Below, one piece after another: positions 2,986 to 55,362 of a stretch of DNA of 64,000 nt. Source of the DNA: Sabellastarte sp. h YS-2021 (Eukaryota; Annelida; Polychaeta; Sabellida; Sabellidae); the NCBI GenBank assembly GCA_964017235.1, contig OZ024929.1, positions 21,573,464-21,637,463 on the forward strand, read 5' to 3'. The notes below the pieces were generated by a model that worked only from the letters and a program-made list of their open reading frames with translations, had not been told where the DNA came from and did not search any database. Positions within the stretch are counted from its first letter, which is position 1. Every line of letters starts with the position of its first letter. A program made the position numbers and the translations under genes.

Positions 2986-3839
2986 ATGGGGCAGTTCCAC
3001 TGAAGCCGACCGGTCGGTAACTAGGTGTTTTTGGAGAGTCGGGAATAATGTTTACATGGTCGTTTAAGGTCAGTTGTATTTTCCAGGCCTGTCGGCAAGT
3101 GTTGGTGAAATATCAAACATGTTTGATATTTCTTCGACTGTTTCCAACCCTTGTTACAGACCCTGATTTCATCCACCTAGCAACAGGCCCGTCGGTTAAT
3201 TTAAGGGCCTGTCTGTTTCACTTCACGGCTTGTTGGTTAACACAACAGGCCTGTGTGTATCACTTCCAGTCTTATCCTTATCACTCCCAGGCTTGTTCTG
3301 TCATGAAGCCGGCCTGTCTTTTACAATTTAGTACTGCTCATTTTTATGCCATTTCCAGCATTATGTTAGGTTAAAATATGACGAAAAATTTTGTTATGAA
3401 TGACAAAAAACAGTGCAAATGTTGAAAATGTTGAAGTTAACAGATGGTAAAGGTGCACATGTATGCTGTAAGAAATTAATAAATGTGAAAAAGTGTTTTA
3501 TTTGGTCATTTTAATAATCAAATTCTCAGCCTATTTCACCAGAACATTTACTGTGAAAAAAGAGGAATAAGTGCTGACCAGTCAACAAATCGAGAAAATT
3601 AGGTCAAGGACAGTCGACAAACTATCTGGATCCCATCACATATTAATTTTTCTCAATTTTTCTTAAAAGCCAGCAACAAACAAAGAGCCTACATTGACAC
3701 GTGAGATATTGTCAGAAGAACATCTCTCTCTGCTTGTTTCAACAGTATATAACATTTTTATTGAAAATTTTATATTTTAAGTGGCTTTTTCTTTCATAAT
3801 CTGAATCAGACATACCTTTATTGTGTCACCAGCATTTAT

Positions 3840-5830
3840 GCTGAGTGGCATATAGGGATCGCTTTGTCATCCAATTTTGTGGCGTCGTCTGCGTCGTCTG
3901 TCGTCACACTTTGTATTCCGGACAGTATCTCAAAAATGGCTTGTCAGATTTAATTCAAACTTGGTATGTGGATGTAACTGGTCCTGGGGGTGTGCTGTAT
4001 AGTTTTGTGACCTTAAACTCCCACTAGTAAAATACTTAAACTCAATTTAAGTTTTTTAGTTTCCGGACAATATCTCAAAAATGGCTTGATGGATTCAATT
4101 CAAATTTGGCATGTGGTTGTAACTAGTTTTGAAGGTGTGCCCTATTTTAAGGTGACCTTAAACTCCCTTATATAAAAAAATTATGTGCAGTTTACGTTTT
4201 TTCTTTCTCCATGGAGTATACTGAAAGTAACTTCAGAAATTTCATTCAACTTTTGGAACTATATATACCTGGCCATAGGTAAGTGCCACACAATAAGGTG
4301 ACCTTAAACTTCCATTAATAACAGAATTATTTCACTTTAAGTTTGCTAACTTTTGAACAATATTTCAAATATTGTGCAATTCTAGGCGTTTCAGTTGTGG
4401 ATGTAACAAACCTTGAACAAAACTTTCAAGAAAAGATTACCTTAAACTCGCTAACATACAGCAGTGCAAACAAACTTTGAGTTGAAGGCTGGGGCAATAT
4501 TTTTGGTGTTTAGAAGATATTTTATATGCTAATTAGGACTTTTTACATCAATATTCATCATGTACATATATATCCACCAAAAATGGTCTCTTTTGTAAGG
4601 TTATAGTAAGTTGCTGATATTTTATAAACTAATGAGTTTAAGGTTGCATTATTTTGTGTCACTAACAGCTTTGATGGAAGACATGCATGGTCAGAGTAGT
4701 CTTCACACTTACTTTCCAGAGAGTATCTCAAAAATGTCTTGATGAATTAAATTCCAATTTGGCATATTGATGAAACTTTTCCTCAAGGTGTGCCCTATTT
4801 AAGGTGACCTTAAACTGACAGTAGTAAGATTCTTATATTGATTTGAAGGTTTTTTGTTTCCAGGCGGTATCTCAAAAATTTGTTGATGGATTCAATTCAA
4901 ATTTGGCATGTGCTTGTAACTGGTTTTCGAGGTGTGCCTTAAACTCTCATGTCGTAAAAGGTTATATTGAGTTTACATTATTTTTCAATAGAGTATACTG
5001 GGAACAACTTGAGAAATTTCATTCGAATTTTGCATGTATATGTAACTGGCCACAGGTAAGTGCATTTCAATAAGGTGACCTTAAACTCCCAGTAATAACC
5101 AAATTATCTTCACTTTAAGTGTGGCAATTTTTCAACAGTATTTCAAACACTGTGCAATTCTAAGCATCTTTCAAGTTGTGGATGTAACAAACCGTGAACA
5201 AAACCTACAGGAAAAGATTCCCTTAAACTCTCTCACATCTGCAAACTAACTCTTTGAGTTTTTAAAAGATATTTGATGTGCTAATTAAGACTTTATTCTT
5301 TGATATTCATCATATATATCTGTTTACACCAAAAAAGTTCTTTTGTAAGGTTATAGTAAATTCCTGATATTTCATAAACTTATGAGTTTAAGGTTGCATT
5401 TCTTTTGTGTCACTAGCAGCTATGTTTGAGGACAAGTATGGCCAGTGTCGTTGTCACACATCCTTTCCAGAGAGTATCTCAAAAATGGCATGATGGATTA
5501 AATTCCAATTTGGCATGTGCATGTAACTAGTTCTCAAGGTGTGCCCCATTTTAAGGTAACCTTAAACTCCCAGTAGTAACATACTTATATTGAGGTTAAG
5601 GTTATTCATTTCCAGACAGTGTCTCAAAAATGGGTTGATGGATTCAAATTCAAATTTGCCATGTGGTTGTAACTGGGTTTCAAGGTGTGCCCTATTTTAA
5701 GGTGACCTTAAACTTATACATATTAAAACAGAGTCTACATGGTTAACATGACCATAAACTCTTAACATTTGCATTGACTTACATTCAGTTTAAGGTTAGG
5801 ACAAATTTCTGTGATGTTTTGGCAATATTA
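3840..5830. repeat. ~145-bp satellite in 750-800-bp higher-order units
   Basis: TATCTCAAAAATG occurs at 3926, 4071, 4723, 4868 and 5474, with a diverged copy at 5619. Degenerate monomers fill positions near 4214, 4361, 4993 and 5139. The monomer is therefore about 145 bp, and blocks repeat every ~797 and ~751 bp (3926 to 4723 to 5474). Units contain GGTGTGCCCTATTTTAAGG and TGACCTTAAACT. No protein is encoded. Confidence 0.8.
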
Positions 5831-6059
5831 AAGTGATAGTTTAGAGTTTTTCATTTAAATTAAACATGTACATGTGTCTAGACCAAAACAGGATCTTTAT
5901 TGTAATGTTACCATAAAAACCTGAAAGTTAAAAAAGTAAGTATAAAGTTACAACTTATTTTAATTATTATATCCATCCTGCTGGACATGGATATTATTTT
6001 TATTTTCCATCTGAATCACCCTTCATTGCTGCTCATTTACAGGTACAGTATTTTATGTG

Positions 6060-7440
6060 TCTCAGCTAAATTTGGTGTGGAAGTTTAATGGCATGAGAGT
6101 TTGTGTGTGATTGCTTTCTTGGCAATATCTGGCAACAAGTGTTGCCGTGAGCTTTAATATCTTTTGGGGAGTTCTTAGCATTCCAAACCCCTGCATGGAT
6201 TGGAGCTGATTAGTTTTATAATGATAACTGGCAACAGGTGTTGCCATGGCAACACTTATTTCTGTTTCTTGGACTTATAAATATTTTATGGGTTCTTTGC
6301 TTTCCATACCCCTGCATAGACTGGAGTGGATTATTTTTTCGGCAACACCTGGCAACAAGTGTTGCCATGGCAACACTTTTTTTTGTTTCTTGGACTTAAA
6401 ACGTTTTTCTCGGGTATCTTTGCATTTCAAATCCTTGCATTGATCTTAGCTGATTAGTTTTTCGGCCACACCTGGTAATGGCAACACTTTTTTCTGTTTC
6501 TTGGGCTTATAAATATTTTTATGGGTTCTTTGCTTTCTATACCCCTGCACAGATAGGAGCTGATTAGTTTTTTGGCAACACCTGGCAACAAGTGTTTCCA
6601 TGGCAACACTTTTTTATGTTTCTTGGGCTTAAAACGTTTTCTCGGGTATCTTTGCATTCCAAATACTTGCATTGATTTTAGCTGATTAGTTTTTCGGCAA
6701 CACCTGGTAATGGCAACACTTTTTTTTGTTTCTTGGGCTTATAAATATTTTATGGGTTCTTTGCTTTCCATACCCCTGCACAGACTGGGGTGGATAAGTT
6801 TTTCGGCAAACCTGGCAACAAGTGCTGCCATGGCAACACTTTTTGGGTTTCTTGGACTTGTAAATATTTTTATGGGTTCTTTGCTTTCCATACCCCTGCA
6901 CAGACTGCAGCTGATTAGCTTTTCGGCAACACCTGGCAACAAGTGTTGCCATGGCAACACTTTTTTCTTTTTTTTTGACTTGCAAATATTTTTTATGGGT
7001 TCTTTGCTTTCCATACCCCTGCACAGACTGGAACTGATTAGTTTTTCGGCAAACCTGGCAACAAGTGTTGCCATGGCAACACTTTTTTTGTTTCTTGGAC
7101 TTGTAAATATTTTTATGGGTTCTTTGCTTTCCATACCCCTGCACAGACTGTAGCTGATTAGTTTTTCGGCAACACCTGGTAACAAGTGTTGCCATGGCAA
7201 CACTTTTTTCTGTTTCTTGGGCTTATAAATATTTTATGGGTTCTTTGCTCTCCATACCCCTGCACAGACTGGGGCGGATTAGTTTTTCGGCAAACCTGGC
7301 AACAAGCATGACAACACTTTTTTTCTGTTTCTTTGACTTTTATTCCTGTGGATTTTTTGCATTCCAAACCTCTGCATGAATAGGAGCTGGTTAGCTTCTT
7401 CAGCAATATCAGGCAGCTAGTGTTGCCATGGAAACAGTTT
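6060..7440. repeat. ~120-bp tandem array with an X-box-like palindrome in each unit
   Basis: About eleven units of 115-121 bp contain CCTGGCAACAAGTG, then a palindrome centred on CCATGG, then TTTCTTGGACTTATAAATAT and CCATACCCCTGCACAGACTG. Several long ORFs on both strands arise only because the unit length is often a near-multiple of three; their peptides are themselves repeats. Some units lack part of the palindrome (near 6475, 6712 and 7307). Confidence 0.92.
6240..7435. promoter_or_regulatory. Cluster of RFX-type X-box palindromes
   Basis: The perfect 14-bp palindrome GTTGCCATGGCAAC lies at 6240-6253, 6361-6374, 6945-6958, 7067-7080 and 7188-7201. One-mismatch versions lie near 6593, 6825 and at 7422-7435 (GTTGCCATGGAAAC). 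In most perfect copies the symmetry extends to 22 bp. Established knowledge: RFX winged-helix factors bind palindromic X-boxes of the form GTNRCC-N(0-3)-RGYAAC. That these sites are bound here is inference; they may be only sequence coincidence amplified with the repeat. Confidence 0.6.
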
Positions 7441-8000
7441 TTTTCTGTTTCTCTGTTGTGCATATAAAAAGTCCTGAAGAAACCTGTATGGTAAAGTGAC
7501 CTAACACTCCACAAGATTAGACAATGCTCGTTTGCTGTCCCACAAAATAGTGGACAAATAGCTGTCATACTTTCCTCAATGAAGAGACAAGGCAGACAAG
7601 ACATGACCCATCTTGTACAATGCATTTACATGTATTATGACTAGCTGAGCATGCTTTACTAGTGGATTATCAGTGCAGAATTGATAGACAATGATCTTGC
7701 TTGTTTGCTCTCCCACAAAATGGCGGACAAATATAAGCCCTTCTTTCCTCTATGAAGAGAGGAGTTGAACAAATAGAAGTCCTTCTTTGCTCCATGAAGA
7801 GGGGAAGCAGACAAGAAAGGACATCTTGCACAATGCATTAATTTGTATGGTCATATGACTAGCAGTTTAAGTTATATTTTTCAACAAGGTGGGGCTTCAC
7901 CATGACTCAGTCCTTCTGAAAGATGGTCTGGATTTGCAAAAATGCTGCACGTCAACTATTTTTGTCTACCTGGCATAAGTTATGTCCTTTCAAATTTCAT
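7441..8000. other. Spacer inside the 5.6-kb element, with a short internal duplication
   Basis: The phrases CCCACAAAAT-GG-GGACAAATA and CATCTTG-ACAATGCATT each occur twice (7540-7625 and 7712-7840), showing a diverged ~200-bp duplication. No gene. Confidence 0.5.
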
Positions 8001-8585
8001 CCGCTTCAGTCTTTAACCAAAGCTGGTGACACAGTACAACTCTGTTTAATTCTTGTTTATTTATTGTATAACATTAATGCAAAAACCTGAAAAAAATAAT
8101 AAAATAAATTTGGACATTTTGGTCACATGATGGGATCCAAATATTCAGCCTTGACCTAGTTTCAGATTTGTTTATTGGTCGACACTTGATCCTCTTTTTC
8201 CCAGAAATTCATCAAACTGTAATGGCAATACCGACTGCAAGTCTGGTCGTGGTGAGTCTATATCTTTCTCCAATCCTGTCTGTTAATAGGGCTTGTCGTG
8301 GCCTGATATGGCTTGTCTGTTAGGGCTTGAGGCCTTGTCTGTTAGGGCTTGTCCTGACAGTTTCCAGACCAGTCTGTACAAAACATCCCAACCCCATGGA
8401 AGGTCGGCCTGTAGATACAGACAAGCCTGGATGTATCACGTCCTGTCGGGAAGTTTAAGCCAACCCAAAAATTTCCAGCTCTTTTTTGTGGATTTTTGTC
8501 CCCGACCCCCTGACTTTTGCAGCCGACCTTATATATATACAGAGTTGTAGGGTCGGCCTCCAGTGGAACGTCCCCATAAGTGCTA

Positions 8586-9320: not shown

Positions 9321-9392
9321 TCACTGTAGTGACTTTGTGTTGCTGCTCACAATTTGATGGCTGTTGCGTTCATTCAAAGTGTAACTGCACAT
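9321..9392. repeat. 72-bp flank of the LINE (left copy)
   Basis: These 72 bp match 10972-11043 with four differences and end exactly where LINE similarity begins. They are either an unusually long target-site duplication or one unit of a pre-existing tandem repeat into which the LINE inserted. Confidence 0.75.
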
Positions 9393-10905
9393 GTCACCCC
9401 CCTCCATAAGAAGCCCAGCCTTGATAGAAATAGCCTCAAAAACTATAGGCCAGTGTCAAACCTTAGTTTTATATCGAAGCTTATTGAGAAAGTTGTGGCA
9501 AAGCAGCTAAATGAATTCATTTCACATGAGGGTCTCTTAAATGTCAACCAGTCTGCTTATAAGAGTTCCCACTCCACTGAAACTGCGCTGTTGAAAATTC
9601 AAAACGATATAGCTTTCTCAGTGGACTCAGGAAAGGCAGTGGCCCTGACATTATTAGACCTGTCAGCGGCGTTTGACACGATTGATCATTCCCTTTTATA
9701 TGACTGCTTGCATGACTGGTTTGGTCTAGATGGTACTGTCTTGTTGTGGATCAAATCATACCTTTCAAACCGAAAACAAAAAATTAAAATAGGTGATAGT
9801 TTCTCTGAGTCGGTAATTCTCCCTTTCGGAGTCCCCCAAGGATCCGTATTGGGCCCTCTCCTTTTTACCCTTTACACTAGTCCCCTCAGTCAAGTTATTT
9901 CTAAATTCAAGGTTACTCATCACCTATATGCTGATGACACTCAGATCTACTTAGCAGTTGACTCCAGGAACTTTGATTCTAGCATGGAAGAGCTGACCGA
10001 GTCTCAAGTCAGTACAGGAGTGGATGGTTGGTGTTAAGCTAAAACTAAACCCAGAAAAAACTGAATTTATCATCATAGGTCAAAAAGCCACCAGAGAGTC
10101 GCTTGCACCAAATTTCCCTGTCCCACTCCTCCAAAACAATATCTCTCCGTCAGTGGAAGTAAAGAATTTGGGTGTTACCTTTGACTCGGACAACTCTTTT
10201 GACAATCATGTTGCCAAGGTTTGCCGAGCATGTTACTATCATCTTCGTGATTTGCGACGAATTCGCAAATTCCTTAGTGACGAAACTGCAATACTTTTGG
10301 CAAATGCTATGGTCAGTAGTCGTCTGGACTACTGTAACTCTTTACTATATGGGGTAAGCAAGTCCAACATAGCTAAACTACAGAGAGTCCAGAATGCTCT
10401 TTGCCGCATAATCTTCAGACTTGACAAAATGAGTCATGTTACACCCTTTTTAGAAAAACTCCACTGGCTTCCAATTCAACATCGTATCCTTTTTAAGTAT
10501 AATCTCCTGGTATTCAAGGCTATCAATCTTTCACAGCCCCCATATCTCTCAGCTTTAATAAGATCGAGCAGTCTCACTTGCGGCAACAGGCTATCTGTCT
10601 CCTCAACCCGCCCTAAGAAGCACATAGGCAGGCGAGGCTTTGCAGTAGCTGCACCAGCGGAATGGAACAAGCTGCCACAAACTGTCAGATCTGAGCAAAC
10701 AATAGATCGTTTCAGAAGTCAGCTAAAGACTCACTTGTTTATGCTGGCATACCCCCCACCTTAGTTATACCCTGGCGGGCGCTTTTTAGATGTCGACCCA
10801 TGCCTGTCCCTGGACTCTCCCTTCTTGGACTTAAGCGCATTAGAGGATTTGCATCAATTTTGCGCTATATAAATCCTACTATTATTATTACTATTATTAT
10901 TATTA
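9393..10905 (+). mobile_element. CR1/L2-like LINE, 5'-truncated, reverse transcriptase region
   Basis: A non-LTR retrotransposon reverse transcriptase spans two frames. The first part (to about 10037) has [50 protein letters not shown] and the catalytic YADDTQIY. The second part (10024-10764) has KLKLNPEKTEF, NLGVTFDSD and [13 protein letters not shown], ending with the usual C-terminal WNKLPQTVR motif. A frameshift near 10020-10040 separates them. The endonuclease domain is absent. The 3' end reads GCGCTATATAAATCCTA followed by an (ATT)n tail. The copy is not functional because of the truncation and frameshift. Motifs place it in the Jockey-superfamily CR1/L2 group; the exact clade is uncertain. 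Confidence 0.9.
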
Positions 10906-14500: not shown

Positions 14501-17500
14501 GATTCCCTTTGTATGAATATCAGGCCTGGAATTTTTTATGAATGTTTTAAATAAATTTTAATGCATTAAAATTCATGAAATCATGCACTAAATCACATAT
14601 AACTTGAAAAATATTGCATTTAGAGCATTTTGTTAAAATGTGTTATTCAGCTAGTTTTCCTATAGCTACAACATGGTGAGTAAATTGGGAGTGTATCCCA
14701 ATAGCTAAGAGAGTAATTTCTACCTTTCATAATTAATAAAATCCCTTGTAACTTGAAAACTATTGCATTTAGAGAATTTTGTATAAATATGTTATTCAGC
14801 TACTTATGAGTCAGCTATAACATAGTAAAATTTCAGACATGTAGCTCATCGCATAGCTGAGCAATAGCTACTTTAAGGGTCTCACTATTGAGTAAGTCAC
14901 TTATAACTTGAAAACTATTGCATTTAGAGTGTTTTTGTAAATATGTTATTCACCTACTTTTGGGTCAGCTATAACATAGTTAAATAGCAGACGTGTAGCT
15001 CATTACATAGCTAAGTAATACCTACTTTCAGGTTATCACTGTTGAGTAAATCAGTTGTAACTCGAAAACTATTGCATTTAGAGTGTTTTTTTAAATATGT
15101 TAATTTCCTACTTTAGTGACAACTACAACATAGTGAAATTATAAACCTGTAGCTCATGGCACAGTTGAGCAATAACTACTTTCACGTTCTCACTGTTGAG
15201 TAAATGAGTTGTGACTTGAAAACCATTGCATTTACAGTATTTTTTTTAAATATGTTATTCACCTACTTTTCAGTCAGCTATAACATACTGAAATTGCAGA
15301 CCTGTAGCTCATAGCATAGCTGAGCAATATCTACCTTGAGATTCTCACTGTTGAGTAAATCAATTATAACTTGAAAACTATTGCATTTCTAGTATTTTCT
15401 TTAAATATGTACTTCATCCACTTTTGGGTCAGCTATAACATAGTGAAATTGCAGACCTGTAACTCATTGCATAGCTGAGCAATAGCTACTTTGAGATTCT
15501 CACTGTTGAGTAAATGAGTTGTAATTTGAAAACTATTGTATTTAGAGTATTTTCTTTGGATATGTTATTCACCTACTTTTTGGTTAGCTATAACATAGTA
15601 AAATTGCAGAGCTGTAGCTCATTGCATAGCTGAGCAAAAGCTACTTTGAGATTCTCACTGTTGAGTAAATCAATTGTAACTCGATTCAAAAACTATGGCA
15701 TTTACAGTATTTTGTTGAAATATATTTTCCACCTACTTTTTACACCTTAACAGTTAACTTGGTACTTTACTTCTGAATACTATTTGCAGGGCTTAACTTT
15801 TGTGTCCTTTTTACCCCACAGCCCTTAAGGGCTGACGGGGTATTGTTTTCACCCATGGTGTCCGATGGGTGGGCGGGCGACCGGAAGAAGTTCGTCTGGC
15901 CTGTATCTCGAAGACCGTAAGGTGTAGGAAGTTGATACTTGGTAGGAACATTGGTTAGGGGGTGTAGGTGTGCAACGTCATGGTGTGACCTTGATCTGAC
16001 CTTTGACTTTGCTGTAGTGACTTTGAGTTTGAAAATCTTGTCTGGGCTATATCTCATAAACCGTAAGGTGTAGGAAGTTGATACTTGGTAGGGACATTGA
16101 TTGGATTGTAAGTGTGCAATGTCATGGTTTGACCTTGATTTGACCTTTGACCTTGCCGTAGTGACCTTAACCTATAAAATCTTGTCCGGGCTATATCTCG
16201 GAAACCGTAAGGTGCAGAAAGTTGATATTTGCTAGGGACATTAGTTAGGGGGTGTAGGTGTGCAATGTCATGGTGTGAGCTTGATTAGACCTTTGACCTT
16301 TCTGTAGTGACCTTGACCTATAAAATCTTGTCTGGGCTATATCTCGGAAACCGTAAGGTGTAGGAAGTTAATACTGGGTAGGGACATTGGTTAGGGGGTG
16401 TAGGTGTGCAACGTCATGGCGTGACCTTGATTTGACCTTTGACCTTGCCGTAGTGACCTTGACCTATAAAATCTTGTCGGGGGTATATCTCGGAAACCGT
16501 AAGGTGTAGGAAGTTGATACTGGGGTAAAGACAGTGGCTAGGGTGTGTAGATGTAAAATGTCATGGTGTGACTTTGATTTGACCTTTGGCCTTGCCGTAG
16601 TGACCTTGACCTATAATGCCTTATTTGGGCTATATTTCGGAAACCATAAAGTGTAGGAAGTTGACATTTGGTAGAGCCACTTGTCGGGGGTTATAGGTGT
16701 GCAACGTAATGGTGTGACCTGGATTTGACCTTTGATCTTGCATATCTGATCCTATTTTATCTCTCTATGGGGATATCTAATACTATTTTATCTCTCTTAT
16801 ATCTCTCTTCTATCTTTTTACTTGAATCTTAGTTGTTGCACCTTTGGGTATCTTTTGATGTACATTAAGCACTGTTAAAGTAATATTAGAATTCATTAAC
16901 CATTTTACTTTTGCAACTTCCCATTGTAACAGATGGTATTGCATCAAGTGAGCCACAGGTTTTGCGGAACTCCGCATAAAAGCATATATTGCCACATCTG
17001 TATGTATGGGTAATATTCAAAACATTCAAACCATAATTCGACCACACAAATGAATATCAAAATGGGAGAAGTGTTAAAGCTTCATAATTTTTAGTTTACT
17101 GAATTGTCTTGTTTTAATATGTAATCTTTACATGCAGTTTCTTTCTCTTAGATGTTATTTTCTCTACTTAAACATTATTTGGACACTGACACTGCTCTGA
17201 AAGTATCCCAATCCCTGTACTGTTTCACTACTTCTATATCTCATGGTGTTGAAAACTATTTTCCCAGGCTGTGGGGTACGGGCATCTCTGATGCTATTTT
17301 CTTCTTTCACTTCTACTCTGAAACTCAAAACTCACAGTCAGCTGACATAGAGCCCGTTCATGGGCACTGATTGCTTGTTCTAATCTGCAGTCAAACAAAG
17401 ACAACCAAGGTAAAACAATATATTTGAACCAAATACATGAACCCATTGACATATGAATCTGCATCAACTCACCAAATTCATGCGGCAACTCATGACAAAA

Positions 17501-20500
17501 CACTGCCACAGAGGTGCTGAGTCCCAGCTGCCAGCTGTCAGTGAATGCCGCCCCAATAGCCAATCCATCTGCAAAGTTGTGAAAACTGTCCCCAATCACA
17601 ATCATCCAGGCAAGGGATTCGGGTGCTGAAAGGAAATAGTGGATCTTTAATAGAGATGCCATTAAACTGGTTTAAGCATACATGAATACACACGTCTTTT
17701 TTTTGTTTGTATTTTTTGCATTGTGTATTTATACTCAGCGCAATATCTCCATATACTACAGGACTCAAAGCGCTATTTAACCAATCCAACTGTACAGGTA
17801 CAGCCCCAACTCACAAGTAACTGACATTCCCCTAACTGGAAGATAGAGGCTCAAGGATGACCATTTATCAACGTTCTTGAGGTTCTTTAACCTGCCACTG
17901 GGGATAGGACCCAATGACAGAGGACCGCCATTTTAAGTGGTCATCCGAGGCACTATGTATCTGCCTGTACCTGGGATTGAACCCACGTCCTCTGAGTTCC
18001 TAGACAAGTGTGTTACCCGCTAGGCCACAGTGGCAGTACAGTCTTAGTACCTCATTGAGTCATTGACCATGACCTATCACTTAAGGAACAAGTAAATGCC
18101 ATATGCAGATCCTGTTATGGTCACCTAAGGTCCATCATTCCTGACTAAGTCTGCTGCACACACAATAGTACAGTCACTCATATCTTCCAGATGGGGCTAT
18201 TGTAACTCTCTCCTAGCTGAACTCCCACAATATCTTATTCATAAGTTGCGGAAAGTACAAAATTGGGCTGCCAGGATAGTTTTGAATCTCAAGAAACATG
18301 ATTCTTTATCGGTTCACCTGCATCAGCTCCACTGGTTGCCTGTTAGGTTTCGGATCAAATTTAAAATAAATCTACTAGTATATTTACTAGTTTGAAGCGA
18401 CAGGCACCATCGTATTTGACATCAATGCTTAAATACCAGTAACACCAATGCACTACAAGATTGGCAAGACAATCATACATGCTACAAGAAAAAAGATCAA
18501 AACTCGTCTCTATGGGTGACTGTGCCTTCAGTGTTGTGGCACCAAAGTATTGGAATGAACTGCCAGATGATATCAGGAACATTGAACTTCCACTGGACAT
18601 CTTCAAAAAGAAACTAAAAACTCATTATTTTAAACTAGCATATTGTAGAGAAAAAGCGCAATGATTGTTTATTTTTAAATAGAATTGCACTATATAAATA
18701 TGTCATGTTATATTATGTTATGTTATTGAGTGGTTAACACACTCCAACCTGCCATCTATTTTGCCACTACTCTAACCTTTTTATTCGTTAGGCTGTGCGT
18801 CTGTACACAACACTTACAAAATGCATGTGTTCCACTGGAGCTGACCGGTCGGTAACTATATCTTTTTTGAGAGTCGGGATCAATGTTTACATGGGCGGTT
18901 ACAGTTGGTTGCAGTTTCCAGGCCTGTTGGCAAGAGTCGACCGTTTCTGACCCATGTAACAGACCCTAATTTCAACCACCTAGCAACAGGCCTGTCGGTT
19001 AACTTAACAGCCTGTCGGTTACACTTCCTGGCTTGTTGGTTAATGAAACAGGCTGTATCAAGTATCGAGCTTGTCCCAAATATGGAGTTCCAGAATGTAC
19101 TTGAAGACAAACAGACTGTGCGGGAGAAATAACCTTAGTTGGTAAGTTTAGCCAGCCTGTCTGTAAATGTTCCCGACAGACCTGTAACAGTAGCAGACCA
19201 GACGTGAGGCATAACTGACAGGCCAGAAATATATTTTTGTCTTACGGCCTGATGGTTTCAAAATCTGTGGCTATAAAAGGGCCAGTCATCACACGCACTT
19301 CATTCATTTGGGCTTTGACTGTTGAGAGACATCTGGTGTGCTGCTTTTGAGTTTTAAGTTTTCATTTTTTTAGCAAATTAGCTTAAGCACTGAGCTAGGC
19401 TTTTGAGTTTTAAGTTTTCATTTTTTTAGCAAATTAGCTTAAGCACTGAGCTAGGCTGGACTGGCTGGGAGTGAATTCTGTTCTATGAGGTTTCACTTTT
19501 TAGTTTAAGTTTTTTTTTGAAGAAGCTGTACATATAATTGATCAGTATGTCAAGGGGCAGAAGGAGAGAGATTGAAGTACCTTCAGATACTCAATCACAG
19601 TTTGAGTTAGGAGATACTGCTGGGGATATAGAGAGAAGAAGAAGGGAGAGAAAGGAGAGAGAGGAGATGGAGAGGCAAGGGCAGGAGGAGAGGGAGAGAG
19701 AGAGGTTGGAATGAGAGAGGCTAGAAGGGACCGAGCAGCAACCTCAAATGGCCAAGATACGGATCCAGAATGCACTCAATCCCAGGCAGAAGAAGGGGCA
19801 AATGAAGTCTATTTTTCTGAGTGATACTGATGAGGAAGCCATTGTGGATTTTGTTAAACAGCACAATGAACTCTCGTTTGAAGACAAGCAGAGGAAAGAG
19901 GGACTCTGTGAAACAGTAGCAGCTTCCAGGAACTTATCTGTCAACACTGTCAAGAAGTGGTTTGAGACTCAATGTACCAGATATGGCAAGCTCACACAGA
20001 CAAAGTCAGGACAAACTGCAGCCAAGAACACCGAAAGACAGACCTGGTTGAAGGACAGTTTCAGTTTTCTACGAGGTCACAGGAAAGGAGTGTCTTCCGC
20101 ATTCAGGTCACCACTAAGACCTTTAGGGGCCACAGCCTCAGTTCCAGACACTTCACAACAGACTGAATCTGAGATGGAAATAAGCATGGCATCAGATGTT
20201 ACTCATCAGCTGTCGACCACAAGCCCTTCATGCTGACCAGCTGCCGTCGCCACTATCACTGCTGAAGATCCAGTTTTAGATCAGTTCCTGCAGATGAGGT
20301 AGATGATTTCCAGTTTTTAGGTGCCCGCAGGACCCTACTCAAGTCCAAGACAGTCGTTCTGCAACTATCTCCACTCCGAGATTGAACACCTGGAGGAGCT
20401 AAACTTTTTGACCTTCAGGAATGAGTGAAACTTCTCAGTGAAATACAGTACAAGCCTGAAGAATGCAAGAGACGGGTCACAACAAGTTAACAGGTCACCA

Positions 20501-23500
20501 CATTTCAACTTCCAGAAGCAACACAGGCCACAGCAGGAAGTGAATACATACTCACCATACCAGATACTCAACCAGTCTCCATACCGGTTGTGAAGCCTAC
20601 TCAGATAGCAACAACACAGCCTGCTAGAGTGATTGCCAAAGTACAGCAACCACCGAGGCCAGCATCAGCACAGCCAGCATCTTTCCTAGTTGTGGATGAC
20701 CAACAGCCTGGGACTTCCAGAAAACTGATGTTTACTTTAAGACCAGTAAAGACAGTTAACCTGCCTTCCGTTGCATCAGAATAACAGGAAGACAGTCAAC
20801 ACAACACTTCTGGATTTTCAAGGCTCTTTGGAGGGATTCCATTTTCACCCTCTCAACTTCAACCAGCACCGTTACCAGTGCCATCTTCCACTCAGCATGA
20901 ACAGTCAAGACCTCCCAGCCAGTCCAGCCAGCTGAGTCAGCTTAAAAACAGATCAGTCTGCATTAAGTCGCGCCAAAAAGCCCTTATAAGGGTCACCCGA
21001 ATCTTTCCAAAACAATTATTTAGCTTATTATTTACACTTCCCCAATGTACATATCAAAAATTGTGTGAATGAGTGAATGAATGTTTGACACAAAATAGTA
21101 AAATTCTAACACACACAGGAACCAAAGAAATTTTAAACACACATCCCCCCAAAAAATAAAGTTTCAACTCCCCCCCTCCAAAAAAAAGGAAAAATTTATC
21201 ACGCACACCAACTACCCAACAAATATCAAACACACACAAGACCTAAAAAATATTAAGTAATATGAATGTGTGGATGGACTGAAAGACAAACAGGCAGTGT
21301 TACAAACCAACACCTCACATGTCACACACATTCCATGACAAGACTGATAATTGGGTGACTGACAGACTGACTTAAATGTTACGTTATGGCCAACACCTCC
21401 TGGTGAAATTTCTGTAGCCTGGTGTGTCAGTTGTGATTAGCTCGTCCAAGATTGTTCTGTATCAACCTCTCTCCTCTCTCTGCAGTATCCAGGGCATAAC
21501 CCATGGATTCTTTGGTTTCCTGCTCTACGTGCTGGGTTCTGTTGTCGGTTACACTTCCTGGCTTGTTCTGTTGAAAAACACCCTCAACTTGTCCAGCAGT
21601 TCCTCTTGATGTGTTGCTATCATCTTTGCAGTGTGAAATGAGTGACACACACCTGGTAATAGGGGTTTATATAGTGTGATATGGATCCTGATTCTGGATC
21701 CCGACTATAGATACCGACCCACAAAATCAATCAGTCCTGCCGGCATGGGTCGGAAACATGTTCCCGGCTTGTCTGTTTGTGATGTGGCTTGTCTTGTTAG
21801 GGGTTTAGGGCTTGTCGTACTACTTCTATGTCTGACCGTGCAAATAAATGTCCCTGACCCTGCATCTTGTCGGGGTAGTCATGACGTCCTGTCTGTAAGT
21901 GTAACATCCTGTTAGGGACTTCTAAATGGACTCAGCATTTTTGTGCCTTTTTATATACGATCCCATGATTTTTACAACCGACCCTACAGTTGTAGGGTTG
22001 GTTGCAGGGTTGGTTCCAGTGGAACACCTGCATAAACAATAGTACTCGGACAGTACAGACTTCCACAAAGGCATGTATGATTTTTACATTCCCCAGGGGG
22101 CCAAGACAGCCAAAGACAGCCATGGGGTTAATATACATTTTATTTTACTGCATACACTTATACATTACTAGCATGTTAGAGTCCAAATAATAAATTAATA
22201 AATTAACCTCTCATTATTATTAATCTGACAAAAAGTAGGTTTGGCCTACACTTGTATGGGTTCTCTGAACACAGTCCAATCCAATCTTATTTAACAGAAC
22301 TTTATCTATATAATAGCAATTTGTTTCATGTTGGATTTCTGCTGAATGCTTGTATCTTACCCTTCTTGAAGTAAGTGTTTTCTGGAGTGGTAGCACTGAG
22401 GTCCACATCACTGAAGGCTTTGTTAACGGATCCACTGTCTTCATTCTTCTTTTCCATTACAGCAACGGTAGGTGTGACTGCATTTTGAGAAGAATGCTTC
22501 AAACACAAAACGGATCAGTAACTGTAAAGTAACGTGTCCATGTGTAATAACAAGTGAGGAAGGATCATGGTTTAGGGTACATCAAAATATCTAGGGCATT
22601 ACGGGTATGGACAATATTGGATAAAGATACAAAAATTAAAGCAAGAGAGCTGAAATTCCCATTATAGCACAGTTAGCATTCAATCTCTAAATAATTTTTC
22701 AATTGTACATTATTAAATGCTCTAGCTAAGCAATTCCACGGAAGAGATTTCACAGCAGTTGACACTTTTATTTTTTTAAGTGTTTTTAAAAAGATTTTTT
22801 TATCTCATTAATATATGAGTTAGCCAACCTGAATATACAAGTTAGTAACTGGAATGTACAAGTTACTAACTTTAACATACCAGTTATCCAACTTGAATAT
22901 ACTAGTTACCTAACTTAATATACCAGTAAAATAACTTGAATATAAATGTTAGACAGCTAGAATATACCAATTAGAAATTGGAAGATATGAGTTACTAACT
23001 TGAATATAGAAGTTATTAACTTGAATATGCGAGTTAGTTAACTTGAATATACCAGTTAGCTAACTGGAATATATACAAGTTGGCTAACTGGAATATACTT
23101 GTTACTAACTTGAATATAGCAGTTACCTAACTTGATATATGAATTAGTAATTTGAACATACGAGTTGTTAATTAACTGGAATACATGAGTTAGCTAACTT
23201 GAATATACAAGTTTATTTTTGGTCATGAACGTTTCAACAACTTTTCTGTAAAATATCCACAATCTAAAATAATCCTTGATATAATCAAATACATAAACTA
23301 TAAACAATGATTTATTCTAACTCTGTACACTGACTTCATTGACTTAGTTTGTACTTTTTTGATGATATACACTGAAAGGTAGTTATATATAAATAATGGT
23401 ATTCACAGTTTGCCTACATTAATGTCAGTTGCATCATCACTGTCCAATTAATTATTTTTTACAATACATAAACTTATTGAAGTGACTTGTACCTCTTCTT

Positions 23501-26500: not shown

Positions 26501-29500
26501 CATTTTAAACTAAATTTTTATTAATGTCAAACTAAATTTTTAATTATTTTTTTTTGTATCTTTGGTTTACTTTTTCTTTGGCTGCTTACTTTAGGCTTAC
26601 ACTTTTTATTTATCTATTTATTCACAGTTGATTTATTATTACTCCTAAGTTGTGATACCTTTGTTGTTCAGTGTTGTTCAGTATTACATTAATTTATTTT
26701 TCATTGGTTTATTATTGTTATGATTTGTCTTTTTGATATTTGTAATGAATTTTGTTTCTCCTCTATGGCTTTTCTGTTAATTTTTGTGTACTTGGTTCTT
26801 TTTTGTTGTAAAATTAATAAAATTTTAAAAAATATATATAATTTTGAGTTTCAATTAACTTATCTGATCAGTTCCACTCTTGTCATAGTGCAACAGATGA
26901 ATTAAATGTAATACTGAGGTGCGATGCTTTAATATGACCTCCAATGTGACCTTTGACCAAAGAAGTGAATGATGACATTTCAGCAGTTATACAAAATAGT
27001 TGGCCTTTTACCAGATTTTACCTTTGGTTTCATCTATCATGCTTAATTTATTCATGTAATTGTCACTAAAATATAAACAAGAAAGATAAACTTTTATTAT
27101 AAATTAACAAATTACTTTATAGCACTTATTACTAAATAACGCTTTACAAATTAAAATTACTTTGTGTAATTAAAAAAACAGTCCTGCAAGAAAAGTTCAT
27201 CACAGTCCTTGAACAAGATCATATTATTCTGCCAATGAACAGCCCCAACCAACGGGGTTGTTATAGTAATGTTTAAAATAATGTCTCTTGGATGCCAGTT
27301 TCCCCATTCTGCTCCTCCAAGGTCACCTGTCTCCAGATACCTGGGATGTGCCTGTGATCATTGTCCTCCTCATCTGCTAGTCCTGGATGGCCTGCCCAAT
27401 AACATGTCCTAAAATGTTGTGCAAGGTCACACAAGCCAGAACCACCAGTGTGACATTGTGTGCATCTGTGCAAATGTGGTCACTAGGCATCTGAAATGAT
27501 TGGCTAATATCATGAAAGCATTCTCCATCACCCCTCTGACTCTGAACAGTCTGTAGATGAAGATACGTTCCTCATCATTCAGGTTTCTTCCAGAGAAAGG
27601 TTCATTGGCAAAGTCCTCAATTGAAAGGCATCATCTGCCACAATGAATTGTGGCATGTCCCTGTCATCACCTGGCAATGGATCAGCATCTGGAAAACCTA
27701 TGGTCTCATCAAGGATGCTCTGCTTCAGTTGACACTCGTTGAAGATCTGGGCACCATTACTCCCTACATCTGCCCACAGAAACCTGCAGTCAGTGTCCAC
27801 AACATCACTGAGTAGAAGCCCTTGTAGTTGTAATATTTAGACCCTGACTGCCTGGGATTTCTTATGGTTACATGTTTCCCATCTATGGCTCCCACAGCAT
27901 GATGGAAGTTCCACCTTTGATCAAAGTGCACTGCCTTCTCCCAACATTCTTGTGTGGTACTTGGACACTTCAGCTGCTCTTCCCTATAAACTTGATAGAT
28001 TGCCTCACACACCTCTATCACCAAGAGTGATATGGTGTTGAAAGCAACCCTGGAGCCATACATTAGGGTCTTGCAGGAGTCCCCAGTGGCTAGGTATCTC
28101 AGGGTGATGGCTACCTTCAATCTAGTAGGACAGGGTTCATGAAATCTTGTCTTCTCCTTCTGAATTACTGGTCCAACTCTTTCCACTAGTTCTCTGAAAA
28201 GTTCTGCAGACAATCTCAAAGCCGTATAAGTCAGAATTCAGCAGCTGGTCTATCAAAACTCCATACTACCCAAGGAGTGGCCTTTCCAGTATCCAGTTTC
28301 TAACCCAACACAGTCTCAAGCACCTACGTCTTCCATGACAGGCCAAATCAAGATGAACTGCAAGATTTTGCATAAGTCTATCATTCTGGAGTTGCAGAAT
28401 CCCACAAAGCAGTCTTAATCTGTCAGCTGGCTGAATATTCATAGTGATGTTGCTCACTCGAAGTCAAAGGTGGAGAAATAATGGTGGTCGACTGTGATGC
28501 ACGGTTTTATAGGCATTTGGGCACCCTACTGCAGGTGAGACATGACTGTTAGTAGCAGTAGCATTACAGAACTATAAATGTACATCACCTACAGACAACC
28601 TCCATTCACCTTGCTTCATGTTACATAACCATCAGAGTAGCACCTGTTACCAAATCCAGAACACATCAAAACTTTCAAAGGCAGTAGGATCACAGTGCCT
28701 CATTGTCGTACACCATGATTTATTTATTTAGGGTTTTACTTCACTTTCAACACTGTACAGGTCATATCACGATGGGTAGTTTAGTGGGCAGAGGAAACCA
28801 ATGCATACAGTTGGTCAAGGTTCTGTACTGTAAACTGCCGACCATTGATAAGAAACAACCAACTCTCCCACATAATGTCCAGGGTTTGAACCGCCAACCT
28901 CAGAGGTGGGAGGCGAGTGTGTTAGCACTGCGCCACCATGGCCCCTCATTGTACACCATAAAGGCCAGTGACAAACCTTGTGGAAATCCCTTTCACCGTG
29001 AATTGATTACAGAAACCACTGAGATGACAGTAGCTTAACCATGGGACCTGGGAGGTGGTTCCACCACCTTGGAAAACCTGTAACAGCAAGACATACCACC
29101 AGTAGTGTGAATGGGCCCTTTTTGTGAAATCCTCTTGAACCCAAAACATAGCCAAAATAAAAAATCTTAGATTTAAGTTTCAGACATAGATAAAGACTTT
29201 GCCAAGCCTTAGACCCTTTGTAAAACTGGCCACTGAAAAAAATGAGATATTGACTTACATGAGGTATCAAATGCATGATGGCATCCCCTGCCAGAGTACC
29301 CACTGCCAAGGCAAGCATGACCGTGAGGATGTACTTGAACATAGGACTGTTCTGCCACCTGGCCATTGGAACACTCAGCAAAGAGAAAGCACTGATGATC
29401 AGGACAGCAAGTATTGTATAACCCCAAGCTGTGAAAAGAAAAACAGATTTACTAACATCCAAAGCCCTGAATACTGACCTAGAGTTTCCCTTGACTATCA

Positions 29501-32500
29501 CTTTTGGTCAATTCTTTTGTAAGCTTAGCACAATGAGTTCGACCATGTCAGGAAGATATTTACTTGGGTTTAGCATCACTTTCAAGTTGCATCACATTTG
29601 TATGGGTGGTATTATGACTGGTAGTTCCTCAAAATTCCGTACTGTAAATCTACAGCAGTCAGTAAGCAAGTACCACCTTATCCACATAGGGTTAGGTCTG
29701 GGGTTTGAACGGCTGACCTCAGAGGTAAAAGGTAAGTGTGTTAACCACTGCACCACCGAGTCCCCCATGACCCTTGACTGCTCCAGTGCATGTAAACACT
29801 GTTACCTTCAATGATCTTCGCTTTGTCTATCTGTCTGTATACTGTAAGCATCTATCAAGAATATCTGTGATGTTTTCATAAATAATTTAGTGATTTATGT
29901 CTTTTTGTATGGTGTAAGTTATCTTTGAAATGCAGAATCAGAATTATATCTTTATATATTAGTAATGAAATAAAGCTATAATTGGTTCGGTAAGTTTTTT
30001 TTTAAAAAGGAAGAACTTAGTGGTAATGAATGATTTAAACCTGATTCAAATTTTCACTTTAAGATGAAACTTTTATAAAATGATTTATCCGATAACATTA
30101 AACAATTATATCAAAATGTGTACACTATACTGCAAGAAAGACACATTATGTTTAACCCCTTCTGCACTGTTGCTAGGTGATGCTAGAAAAGGACTTGTCT
30201 TTAAAAATGGCAGCTGATATTGGACCCACAAGAAAATTGTTGTGGAAACCAGACTAGTAAAAACCAAACTGTGATACTTAACTTACTTAAACCTGATTCA
30301 AATTTCCACTTTAAGATGAAACTTTTATAAAATGATTTATCCGATAACATTAAACATTATATCAAAATGTGTACAATATACAGCAAGAAAGACACATTAT
30401 GTTTAACCCCTTCTGTACTGTTGCTAGGTGATGCTAGAAAACGACTTGTCTTTAAAAATAGCAGCTGATATTGGACCCACAAGAAAATTGTTGTGGAAAC
30501 CAGACTAGTAAAAACCAAACTGTGATACTTAACTTACTTTCACCGGCTGTTGGTGGCGGATCAGTGACCTCATCATCATGGCTGTGTACACATCCATGTA
30601 GCACCTGCTCCAAAAAAGTTGGAGCGATCTCGATGAAGTCAAACTCAGTGAGTCCGCCATCCTCGCTTATGTTGTGAATATGGAGCAGGTCATGTCCATC
30701 ATAGCACTGTAAAATATACAAATCCTATATTTAGAACTACCACTGTCATGTGACAATTATATTATATTAATATGTATCACTTAACAGTGCTTAATGAGAA
30801 TTCGAGTCTTTTACAAATTTCTTACTTTGTAAACAAGCATTGGTTTGGAGTAATACTGTTATAATTTTTCCTTCTGACCAGCACAACGACATCTTGTTTA
30901 TTATCACAGGCCCATGTTGCTGGGAGTATGCACTTGTAAAAGTTTGTAGGGTGAACATGACAGTTGCTGAAGAATTATGTAAAAACCTAGGAATATTATT
31001 GGCTTCTTACCAGCCCAGTAACATGTTGTTGGTCCTGTGTTACACTGTGAATATCAGCAAGTGATCGTGTCAGTTGTGGAAGAAACATGTCTAAAAATCT
31101 TTTCAAGTATCAGCTGTATCTGTGTTATTGTGTACTGGGGATTTTCACTTAAAAATAAGTAATATTTGACTCCCCAAATTTCTTTAAAAGGAAAATCTTA
31201 TTTTGTGAGTGATAATGAATGGCTTCTAACTGATGTCAATTTGTCATTTAAATAATACCAAATAAGAGGGTATTAATATAAAAACTGTGCACCTTTTTCT
31301 GTGCTATTGCTATGAGTAACTACTAATGCTATTTATCCAAAATGGTGGCTGGACCCTTAGCTGGATATGACTAGAAGAAACGTTATTTGAATAACAATAT
31401 TAGTGAATTTGGGTTAAGAGTATCTTGCTTGGACAACAACTGGTGTCAATTACAGGTCTAAAATGTGACATATTGGTGTTGTGAAGCACAAACGTGAAAA
31501 ACACTTGAAATAGGACTAATATGTGACAGAACCTCTGAAAGAGACAGATGTCCTAATTGGATATGACAACCTTTAGACTATCACGCAGTGAGCTGGCATA
31601 TATCAGTCTGATATCATGGATATTTATTCTTATCCACTGTTTGACTAAGAAGGGATCAATAGATTAATTAATGTGAAAGTTTCCATGTTATGTAAAACAC
31701 TTTGCCACTGGGATGATTGGTTAGCATTTAGTAACAAATTACATTTGCAGATATTTTACACTATATCAAATAAATGCTGTTTTATTGTCAAAAAACATTA
31801 CACACTGATCAGAATCTTCCATAATACAATCAACAATAACGACGTTTTCCCTCAGTGACAGCAACTTTCACCACTTTCATATTGTATGACACATTTGTCT
31901 TGAACCTTTAAACACATCAGGCAGATGGCCAAACTTCTTTGTGATTTTCTTAAGTTTCGTAAAATTTCATCATGATATTGCTATGCATAACTGCTAATGC
32001 CATTCATCCTAATGAAATCTTATTTTAAAAAGGGAATAATTTTTGAGAATAACAATATTAGTGAATTTGGGTTAAGAGTATCTTGCTTGTGCAAAAACAG
32101 GTATCCAATACAAGTAATGTGACTCATTGGTGTTGTGAAGTACAAATGTGGAAAACGTTAATTAGGACTATTATGTGACAACACCTCTGAAACAGACAGG
32201 TGTCCTAATTGGGTATGACAACCTTTAGACTATCACGTAGAGAGCTGGCATATATGATTCATGGATATTTATTCTTATCCACTATATGACTAAGAAGGGA
32301 TCAATAGAATAATCAATGTTAAAGTTTCCATGTTATGTGAAACTCTTTGCCACTGGGGAGAACTCGTAACATTTAGGAACAAATTACATTTGCAGATATT
32401 TTACACATGTCAAAAAAATGAGTCTTTTTTATCACAAAGTCATTTCACATTTGATCAGAATCTTCCACAATACAATCAACAATAAGGAGGTTTCCCTTAG

Positions 32501-44500: not shown

Positions 44501-47500
44501 TTTTTCCAGTCAATTGAACTTAGAATTTGTTTCTGAAGATTGGGATTTGATATTTTCCTTTCTTTATTAATACAATGAATGTGTTGTCTCATATGTTATT
44601 TGTAATATGAATGTTAAAAGTAGTTCCTTTTATATTTTTGTTTGTAGAAATATACTAGTTCTATAGCAAATAGTAAAAGCAATAATAATTTTGAAATAAA
44701 AAGTAAAACATAACTTTGAAACAGTTTTTGTTTATACTTTGTATATTCAAACAAGGACTTTTATCCACAATCTCAAAAATGGTGTTATACTTTTCTCCAC
44801 AGTTATCAACCAATTGTATAATTTTTCTCTGTGTGGAATTTTTCTGCGCGGAGCTTTTCTCTATTGTATGAAATTGGTTAAAAGGGAAAGGTATATTTGG
44901 TTGAAATTGAAAAGTATCAATCGCAATACTTTACATGATGTGGTGCAAGATATTTTGGAAAAATGAAACACCAAGTAATTGTTATATGTTTAACTTGATC
45001 AATTTTACACACCAATCAGATATGTATTAGCCTTAAAGTTCTGGGGTATTTATTTTAGGCTGTGAAAAGTAAACATGTTTTCCAAAACTTCACAATGGTA
45101 CAAGTAATATTTCAAAACACTGACCCCACACTCTGATGTATAACATCAATTTAATGCATCAATACATCTAGCCCTGCCTATGGGCTGTACCAGAGCCCCT
45201 CGCAGAGTGCACAAAATGCTGTAAGTTTGGGCAAAAGTTATGCTGACTTTTAAACGAGACAGAAAAACTAAATATTTGACCTTGGACCTTAGCTGATAGG
45301 CTTTGGTTACAACTAAGTAAAATGTAACATTAGTCAAACTAATGCCTGCTCAACACTAAAGTGCTGACACCCTTTTTAAAATTAAGTATGTTTTCTAAAG
45401 GTCAGATTGTTTCTTTCAGACACACTTAGTTCCAGCATTCAATATGCTATTCATGGATATTTCCTGTGGGTAAAATATAGGAGTATATAAAAATATAATA
45501 AAATATCAGAACTGATCAATAATCCATCTAAAGAACCTGATACTCTACAAACAATATCACACCACCTTGTCGACCCTTATCGACAAACATGCTCCACTAC
45601 ACACTAAACATACCAAGGCAAAGTACATCCCAGGATGGGTTAACGACACTGTAATTGCAGCAAAAGAGACCAAACGTTTGTTTGAATGCATTTGGCGAAG
45701 AGATAAATCCACCTTCAATAGATCCTGGTACATGCAGAAAGTTCATCAATATAATAGAATCTACATGCAAGCCAAATCTCAATTCCTTAAAGTGAAGATT
45801 CAGGACAATCACAACAATCCACAAAAATTATGGCGTGTCCTGGGTGATGTCTTGCACACACTTCCAGCCAAGATCCTCCCATCGATAAAGCCCCCTCAGC
45901 TTTTGGCTGACAGGTTCGTGGAGTTCTTCACAGAAAAAAATAGAAAAAATATGCTCAACATTCTCTGTTTCTGTCAATTTGCAACACATCACCCCTGACT
46001 CTCCTCCCCCCATGTTATCTACTTTTTCTACTGTAACAGAGAATCAAGTCACTAAAATTATTACCAATTCTCCTAGTAAATCATGTTCGCTAGACCCTTG
46101 GCCTACCTTCCTTGTTCTTGATTATCTGGATATTCTCATTACCCCCATCACCTCAATAATCAATGCTTCTCTTGAGCAAGGTAAGTGTCCAAACTTTTTA
46201 AAGCAGACCCACGTTACCCCTATCCTAAAAAAAATCATCCTTAGATAAAGAAGTTTTTAAAAAATTTAAACTTTATCTCAAAGATACTTGAAAGGGTTGC
46301 AGCCGTCCAGCTACAAACTCATCTTGATGAAGCCGGTCTTATGACTGGCTTTCAATCGGCTTATAGAAAACACCACTCTACTGAAAGCGCCCTCCTCAAT
46401 ATTCAAAACGACATTCTTCTCAACATGGCCAAAGGTTCTGTCACTGCCCTCACCCTTCTGGATCTATCCGCCGCTTTCGATACCACTGACCACACCATTC
46501 TCCTGGACAGATTCAATGTTTATTATGGAATCAGTGAACTAGCACTTGGTTGGTTCAAATCATACCTGTCAGGAAGGACACACTCGGTCAAGGTAGGTAG
46601 TACACTCTCCCATCCTGCTGTGCTCTATTATGGAGTACCCCAGGCCTCTGTCCTTGGACCAATCCTTTTCTCTCTCTACACCAACCCAATCAGCTCAATC
46701 ATTCATTCCCACAGTAGCATCAACTACCACTTTATGCCGATGATACCGAGCTATACATTACACTTTCACGAGAAAATTTCTCCCATTCTATCCAAAAACT
46801 AAAGAACTGCCTAAACGACATTCAAAATTTCATGTTTGCAAATAAGTTAAAACTCAACCTTGACAAAACTGAGTTCATTCTCATTGGCTCCCAAAGAAAT
46901 CGTAACCAACTCCTCCCTCACTTCCCTATCAATATTCTGGGAAATTAGGTCTCGCCAGCACAAAGTGTCAGGAACCTCGGAGTGGTGTTTGACTCTAATT
47001 TCAATTTCTCAAACCACATGTCACAGGTCATTAAGTCCACTAGAGTACATACAAGAGACCTCTACAGAATTCGCCCCCTTTTAGACATGAATACATCAGT
47101 CCTGCTAGCGAATGCTTTGGTGAGCAGCAGGCTGGACTACTGCAATTCACTCTCAACACCACTCTTATCCCTCACTGATTTTGAGTTAAGGAGATTGCAG
47201 CTAGTCCAAAATTCACTGTGCAGGATTGTCACCCATTCCTCTAAATTCTCTCACATTACCCCTCAAATAAAAAACTCCATTGGCTACCAGTCAGATACAG
47301 GGTAAAATTCAAAATTGGTCTTATTACATACAAAATTCTCAACCAGGGTCAACCAGTTTACCTAAGAGAATTAATCCACCCCTACTCCTCTTCCAGAAAC
47401 ACAAGGCGAAGTACCCCAAAACTCAAGTTCCTTCAAACCCCCAACTTTGATCGCAGAGTTCACAAGTCAATAAAACACTTTTCTAACTCCTTTAGTCACT

Positions 47501-54561: not shown

Positions 54562-54766
54562 TGGGAAGCACGGCCTGGTAGGGGCCTGCTTGGTCAGTTG
54601 TTGATGTTAAAAGTTTAGGTATAATTGTTTTGCCCTAATTTCAATGATCGACCTTTCTGCTTCATTGATTTTATATGCAGGGGTTCTTAGTTAGGTGAAC
54701 AGAGGAGTCACTTTGAATTTTTCATTGAAAGGACAAGCTCTTACATGGAAAGAAAGATTAATTTTT
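54562..54766 (+). repeat. Split direct repeat A1
   Basis: Begins TGGGAAGCACGGCCTGGTAG and is colinear with A2 at 60138-60342 (same internal spacing, few mismatches). Left terminus of the retrotransposon. Confidence 0.92.
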
Positions 54767-55362
54767 TTATCAAGTTTTTAGTAAAGATTTTAACTTTTAT
54801 GTCAACATTTATCATGGGTAAAAAGAAAACGGTACAATCTACAGTGAAGGGGAAGGCTGGAAGCAAAGGCAAGACGAAGTCGAAGCACATAGATATAGAC
54901 AGATCCTACTTATCTCCTCATCCTACGACCAGCAGTGTGGTGGACACAATGCAAAGTAATTCAATGTCATCTCCCTTGCCGCAGTCGGATGTTGTCTCCC
55001 TTCTTCATAGAATTGAACAATCCGATAAAGAACTTATTCAGCGAGTCAAAAAGATGGAAAAACAGAATGCATCTGTGACGCGTTGTATTTCCCCTGTCAC
55101 AGTGGCATGAGCTGGTGTGAACTCGCAGAATGTGTTGCCTGCAACTACCTCGAACCTTGGTGGGCCCGCCGAACAACAGGGGCACCCCATGGCTGTAGAT
55201 CCTACTGGGTGGAGACAGCAAGCCCAGGGAGTCGGGCAGGATGTGGCTGTAGGGCAGCAAGCAGGTTCAAGTCTCAGACCACCTCCCACATTAGAAGCTG
55301 TTAGATCATCTTCAGATATATCCAGGGCGGTGACGCGTTTGCTGTCTTATTATGCAAGGTAA
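54745..55362 (+). pseudogene. gag-like ORF, N-terminal part, one in-frame stop
   Basis: A basic Lys-rich N-terminus (GKKKTVQSTVKGKAGSKGK) is followed by a coiled-coil-like stretch (LLHRIEQSDKELIQRVKKM) and, after TGA at 55108-55110, the same frame continues with a Gln/Gly/Pro-rich segment to 55362. The next segment is in another frame. Position and composition fit the gag-like ORF of YR retrotransposons. No catalytic motif. Confidence 0.65.

Follow-up and report, generated by a model that had tools for sequence, protein, structure and literature searches.

Palindromic X-boxes of the RFX type in the central tandem repeats of a dispersed HINE-like mobile element

By analogy, the closest kin of the repeat array analyzed here appear to be the Caenorhabditis Helitrons that spread heat-shock elements. 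These Helitrons harbour the majority of C. elegans heat-shock elements, and their describers speculate that they make selfish use of the stress response (PMC6927752). They resemble the present case in being rolling-circle-type elements with several copies of one transcription-factor motif each; they differ in that HSF-1 binding and expression effects were measured, whereas here the motif is an RFX X-box whose binding is a prediction, and the carrier is a HINE-like element with satellite arrays. ISX, which spread dosage-compensation sites in Drosophila (PMC4384637), likewise has a different motif and a measured function, while the evidence used below is sequence. HINEs are non-autonomous Helentrons with a layout of subterminal inverted repeats (subTIRs), a left hairpin and microsatellite, and central repeats (PMC4067079, PMC7492417). 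The Pacific oyster element Cg_HINE (PMC7492417) shares with the element studied here short subTIRs, a left inverted repeat with a GTC-type microsatellite, satellite-like central repeats and many dispersed copies; it sometimes contains two arrays per element, and its microsatellites are GTCY, GTCC or GTCK. In contrast to that element, which was compared by its published description, the central repeats found here hold a perfect X-box, and the term 'transcription factor' is absent from the main text of PMC7492417. Within the literature collection searched, no paper combined RFX and its X-box with transposable elements, whether or not satellites were included.

A pattern scan of the window (C3:21573464-21637463, the whole stretch of 64,000 nucleotides that was analyzed) located the X-box 14-mer GTTGCCATGGCAAC in five exact and three one-change copies between positions 6240 and 7435. 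Exact copies were also picked up by a palindrome scan:

6240..6253, + strand, exact X-box, 18-bp symmetry (pattern and palindrome scans)
6361..6374, + strand, exact X-box, 22-bp symmetry (pattern and palindrome scans)
6594..6607, + strand, one-change X-box (pattern scan)
6824..6837, + strand, one-change X-box (pattern scan)
6945..6958, + strand, exact X-box, 22-bp symmetry (pattern and palindrome scans)
7067..7080, + strand, exact X-box, 22-bp symmetry (pattern and palindrome scans)
7188..7201, + strand, exact X-box, 22-bp symmetry (pattern and palindrome scans)
7422..7435, + strand, one-change X-box, variant GTTGCCATGGAAAC (pattern scan)

An initial sequence-only reading had reported five exact palindromes, symmetry extending to 22 bp in several units and three further copies with one or two changes. 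The exact copies were recovered at 6240, 6361, 6945, 7067 and 7188 as four perfect 22-bp palindromes and one of 18 bp, and the three further copies exist, each with exactly one change. The whole array comprises 12 units (u0-u11, 6052-7470) of ~121 bp each, with a further period of 243 bp. Four of the 12 units lack the X-box, namely u3 and u5 (one common deletion of 12 bp), u10 (a deletion of 6 bp) and the degenerate u0. Variant GTTGCCATGGAAAC is present in the last counted unit at 19 of the 28 loci described below and is apparently a terminal-unit variant inherited together with the right module.

With up to three mismatches allowed, the window scan gave nine matches, eight inside the array and one outside at 35237 (two mismatches), against a mean of 2.60 and a maximum of 7 in 100 dinucleotide shuffles of the window; the eight array copies are tandem relatives and thus not independent events. 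The exact X-boxes of the array make up 5 of the 13 perfect palindromes of at least 14 bp in the window. For a single monomer, 20,000 dinucleotide shuffles of one consensus unit yielded a perfect palindrome of at least 14 bp 103 times and a 22-bp palindrome once, and their best approach to the X-box was two mismatches (29 times), never closer. A chance origin of the X-box is ruled out by the window and unit shuffles together with the genome-wide count given below.

The 14-mer is the classic palindromic RFX site, and all 14 of its positions agree with the published palindromic consensus (PMC3414849), in line with the RFX match claimed earlier. By arithmetic, a random 14-bp palindrome would match this consensus once in 16,384 cases, a figure that takes no account of how many palindromic motifs are known. 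The same genome encodes RFX DNA-binding domains (PF02257; six matches, at five places, exceed the Pfam cut-off). Given the classic-site match and these encoded domains, binding of RFX to GTTGCCATGGCAAC in vitro is predicted with high confidence. In many functional X-boxes just one half-site is strong (PMC3414849), so a perfect palindrome does not prove that the site is used.

To judge by the anatomy of the region, the array is almost certainly a central tandem repeat of a HINE-like element that is nested in a TIR element:

2987..8576, no strand assigned, outer TIR element hosting the nested HINE (coordinates taken from its printed ends)
~3821..8056, + strand, HINE-like element (non-autonomous Helentron) carrying the array (edges of similarity among copies)
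3822..3833, + strand, 5' subTIR TGTGTCACCAGC, 12 bp, exact inverse of 8022-8033
3840..3852, + strand, inverted repeat pairing with the 5' subTIR as a hairpin (fold with RNA parameters, -16.8 kcal/mol)
3884..3905, + strand, GTC-type microsatellite-like stretch of the left module
3900..5714, + strand, first central repeat region, ~145-bp unit, without X-box
6052..6165, degenerate unit u0 preceding the 11-unit array
6166..7470, + strand, second central array, 11 units of ~121 bp (tandem-repeat and unit alignment)
8022..8033, + strand, 3' subTIR GCTGGTGACACA

As expected of a HINE, identical subTIRs of at least 11 bp lie near both ends and are also present in the copies L003 and L013, an inverted repeat (3840-3852) by the 5' subTIR accompanies a microsatellite (3884-3905) in the left module, and two arrays form satellite-like central tandem repeats. 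The 3' subTIR is located 23 nt from the end, whereas this distance is about 38-60 in mite HINEs (PMC4067079). On the question of the palindrome that HINEs have near the 3' end, folding gave -5.9 kcal/mol for the commonest right-end sequence and only -2.1 for the window copy. On the right, among the 27 further loci, similarity to the window ends at 8051-8060 in 21 and at 8065-8073 in two, while the remaining four end earlier (two) or have no match (two). On the left, two of three copies fetched in that direction start at 3818, with TTGTGTCACCAGC. HINEs insert in T-rich DNA and leave no target-site duplication; inspection of the insertion sites by eye revealed many flanks that start T-rich and no clear duplication, and the terminal bases of the ends are ambiguous. 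These ends common to copies rule out a satellite outside mobile DNA and bear out the earlier placement of the array inside a mobile element.

The TIR of the outer element reads TGGGG(NN)GTTCCACTG, with TAA flanks at 2984-2986 and 8577-8579. TWA target-site duplications mark Harbinger elements, and the combination expected of PIF/Harbinger, TIRs plus a 3-bp TWA duplication, is found here. A relative of the outer element (18829-22025) has the flanks AAA and TAA and no clean duplication; of its two scanned ORFs, the 173-aa ORF at 19715-20236 had no Pfam match at E<=10 and the ORF at 20491-20781 had only two DUF matches (E 0.65 and 1). The outer element is called a TIR element here, and its PIF/Harbinger membership is left open. 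It was rejected as the primary carrier because most copies stop at the inner boundary and differ beyond it. Its left arm contains a 26-bp perfect palindrome, GAAATATCAAACATGTTTGATATTTC, at 3107-3132.

Several other features of the window were recorded. Satellite-like arrays free of X-boxes (none with up to three mismatches) are located at 213-1560 (133-bp unit), 1776-2392 (154), 14739-15740 (155) and 15894-16741 (146), the last preceded by the palindrome CAGCCCTTAAGGGCTG (15819-15834) in what looks like another HINE left end. At 22810-23213 a unit of 21-22 bp is repeated about 18 times, and positions 23052-23067 within this array form a perfect palindrome of 16 bp. Retroelement pieces lie at 9333-10764, 45516-47682 and 54691-59946; reverse transcriptase was matched at 9333-10037 and 46245-46799 and, with a score below the cut-off, at 57731-58168. 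Two ORFs with matches to ZIP zinc transporters (17294-17671 and 29007-29507, - strand) are probably exons of one gene. Scans of the window with Rfam (gathering scores) and for tRNAs gave no match.

The 1.786-Gb assembly (647 contigs) was searched to obtain the distribution of the motif. The exact 14-mer occurs at 7,443 sites, compared with about 2.3 expected from the base composition of the window and none for the control pattern read backwards. The first 50 listed of the 7,443 sites, which all fall in the first 11.5 Mb of C1, were retrieved as parts of 30 loci, and their surroundings were compared with the repeat units after exclusion of the palindrome; a match was defined as a score above the maximum of 600 base shuffles. 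Matches were obtained for 49 of these first 50 sites, 19 to the ~121-bp unit and 30 to a ~155-bp unit. Two of the 49 (L032, and L053 at 2057) barely exceed the shuffle maximum and look like further diverged forms, and the one remaining site (L033) equals the 99th percentile of the shuffles. The ~121-bp and ~155-bp repeats are homologous but diverged families, and the HINEs that house them differ in their ends: of 17 loci with ~155-bp arrays, judged by eye, about 10 show AACCCCAGCC and, after six bases, GGCTGGGGTT or a close variant of it, followed by a GTCC-like stretch. The suggestion of the sequence-only reading that a transposon spreads such arrays thus agrees with the 7,443 exact sites and with the homologous repeats around 49 of the first 50 listed. 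Viral contigs scanned for the extended motif gave no matches.

Conservation was analyzed in 28 loci of the ~121-bp family, namely L001-L030 without L011 and L012, which overlap L002 and L008; L001 is the window's own locus. The loci were drawn from 40 scored of 1,882 candidates and were found by whole-array similarity, not by the X-box. After 31 of 296 units with fewer than 100 columns were left out, 265 units were used, of which 157 carry an exact X-box, 55 have one mismatch, nine have two or three and 44 have a gap. Every one of the 28 loci contains 3-12 exact X-boxes; the earlier concern that other genomic copies might consistently lack the palindrome therefore does not hold in these loci. 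Substitutions amount to 87/3407 (2.6%) in the palindrome versus 2634/27335 (9.6%) elsewhere in the 265 units. The palindrome ranks third among 109 14-bp windows, the lowest windows being the palindrome and its neighbours, and a fraction of 0.0001 of 20,000 draws of composition-matched random columns was equally low. Gaps run in the opposite direction (8.2% in the palindrome versus 2.9% elsewhere), and with gaps counted the rank is 45/109. In the window array, ten core units gave substitutions of 3/123 in the palindrome versus 104/1055 elsewhere and gaps of 17/140 versus 25/1080; with gaps counted the palindrome ranks 80/109 and is exact in five units, against up to eight for other 14-mers.

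Only one of the 56 subfamily-diagnostic columns (variant at 4% or more; 122 columns in total) falls within the 14 positions (hypergeometric P 0.0014), and the longest diagnostic-free run is 12 columns (P 0.02). These P values are optimistic, since common variants are few events common to many units, and the column tests overstate independence because units share ancestry. Rare substitutions are not depleted, at 63/3407 (1.85%) in the palindrome versus 299/27335 (1.09%) elsewhere, an excess that may partly result from misalignment beside deletions. We take this split between common and rare variants to mean that the X-box was conserved during multiplication of the element and that single copies then decayed freely. 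Exact counts of rival blocks in the 28 loci were 161 X-boxes, 145 ACCCCTGCACNGA and 46 GAGCTGATTAGNTTT; the corresponding counts were 50, 18 and 28 in the 30 loci that had been selected through the X-box.

The signal in the ~155-bp family is weak. Of its 30 loci, 13 scored below 250 and were set aside. The 17 loci used contain 81 units, 51 of them sufficiently complete, and removal of 16 ascertained exact units left 35. Substitutions were 32/468 (6.8%) in the palindrome versus 473/4757 (9.9%) elsewhere (rank 27/143), and 12 of the 35 units are exact after one ascertained unit per locus is dropped. The consensus sequences of the two families are identical at 14/14 positions in the palindrome versus 51/89 outside, a comparison biased upward because the ~155-bp loci and their consensus were obtained via the exact X-box. 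Besides the palindrome, the families have other blocks in common, for example AGCTGATTAG and ACCCCTGCA. When the ~155-bp family was queried by DNA in an X-box-blind manner, no candidates were returned, but the search skips very common words and this outcome therefore carries no weight.

RFX is the master switch of cilia genes. The explanation that we place first, at a little less than an even chance, is that the X-box was retained because RFX binding helped the element. Host RFX proteins would bind the X-box and, in cells that express RFX, flagellated male germ cells among them, this binding would open the chromatin or promote transcription. It would thereby have raised the copying chance of the element or of its source locus, and the X-box would have stayed intact while the surrounding units diverged. 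Individual dead copies would mostly not be kept for RFX function and would decay like the rest of the unit, while some may still be RFX-responsive elements or dilute RFX.

A possible, if unlikely, alternative is that the dyad matters for its structure: palindromic hairpins or cruciforms would promote unequal exchange, amplification or junction formation, and the X-box identity would be incidental, although RFX might still bind. Three 51-nt palindrome stretches fold as DNA hairpins more stably than most shuffled versions (z -2.5, -2.4 and -1.8), unlike a deleted unit (z -0.5); a whole unit stands out less (z -1.4, equalled by 21 of 200 shuffles). Deletions cluster on the left arm, with one 12-bp deletion in 20 of the 265 units, and palindromes are present in other arrays of the window (e.g. 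22810-23213) and have been described in bivalve satellites and HINEs (PMC5139131, PMC7492417). Such a role requires symmetry and not a particular sequence, yet both families have the same 14 letters (in a biased sample), no pair of compensatory changes occurs among the 30 commonest palindrome variants listed, and units without the dyad are still amplified in dimers.

Slightly less likely again is an inert motif that the ancestral unit already possessed and that was carried along as the unit spread, its apparent conservation reflecting few subfamilies and ascertainment rather than function. The undepleted rare changes and the weak signal of the ~155-bp family would be expected of such a passenger, as would the sharing of AGCTGATTAG by both families and the number of exact ACCCCTGCACNGA blocks in the ~121-bp loci, which almost reaches that of the X-box. 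The main observation against it is the substitution deficit at 14 prespecified columns of the ~121-bp family, in loci that were not chosen by X-box. Finally, it is very improbable that many copies are now RFX enhancers under host selection, despite the precedents of Helitron-borne sites and ISX rewiring responses (PMC6927752, PMC4384637), as the undepleted rare (recent) palindrome changes count against an enhancer role of individual copies, the window copy lies inside another mobile element, the nearest ZIP-domain match among the ORFs scanned (17294-17671) starts more than 9 kb away, and a source that is conserved while its copies decay is more in keeping with retention that serves the element.

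Retention through RFX binding might be extended to the improbable proposal that HINEs in this lineage exploit the host RFX circuit, with arrays driving activity in flagellated germ or ciliated cells and dispersed sites having recruited or buffered RFX genome-wide. If true, this would be a ciliary counterpart of the heat-shock elements spread by Helitrons. Apparent conservation in the multiplying lineage together with decay in single copies is a pattern that tells selfish exploitation of a host factor apart from co-option by the host. On the scale of a genome, this provides a concrete case in which the sequence of the site bound by an ancient regulator of cilia is present thousands-fold above the expectation from composition, mainly via one class of mobile element.
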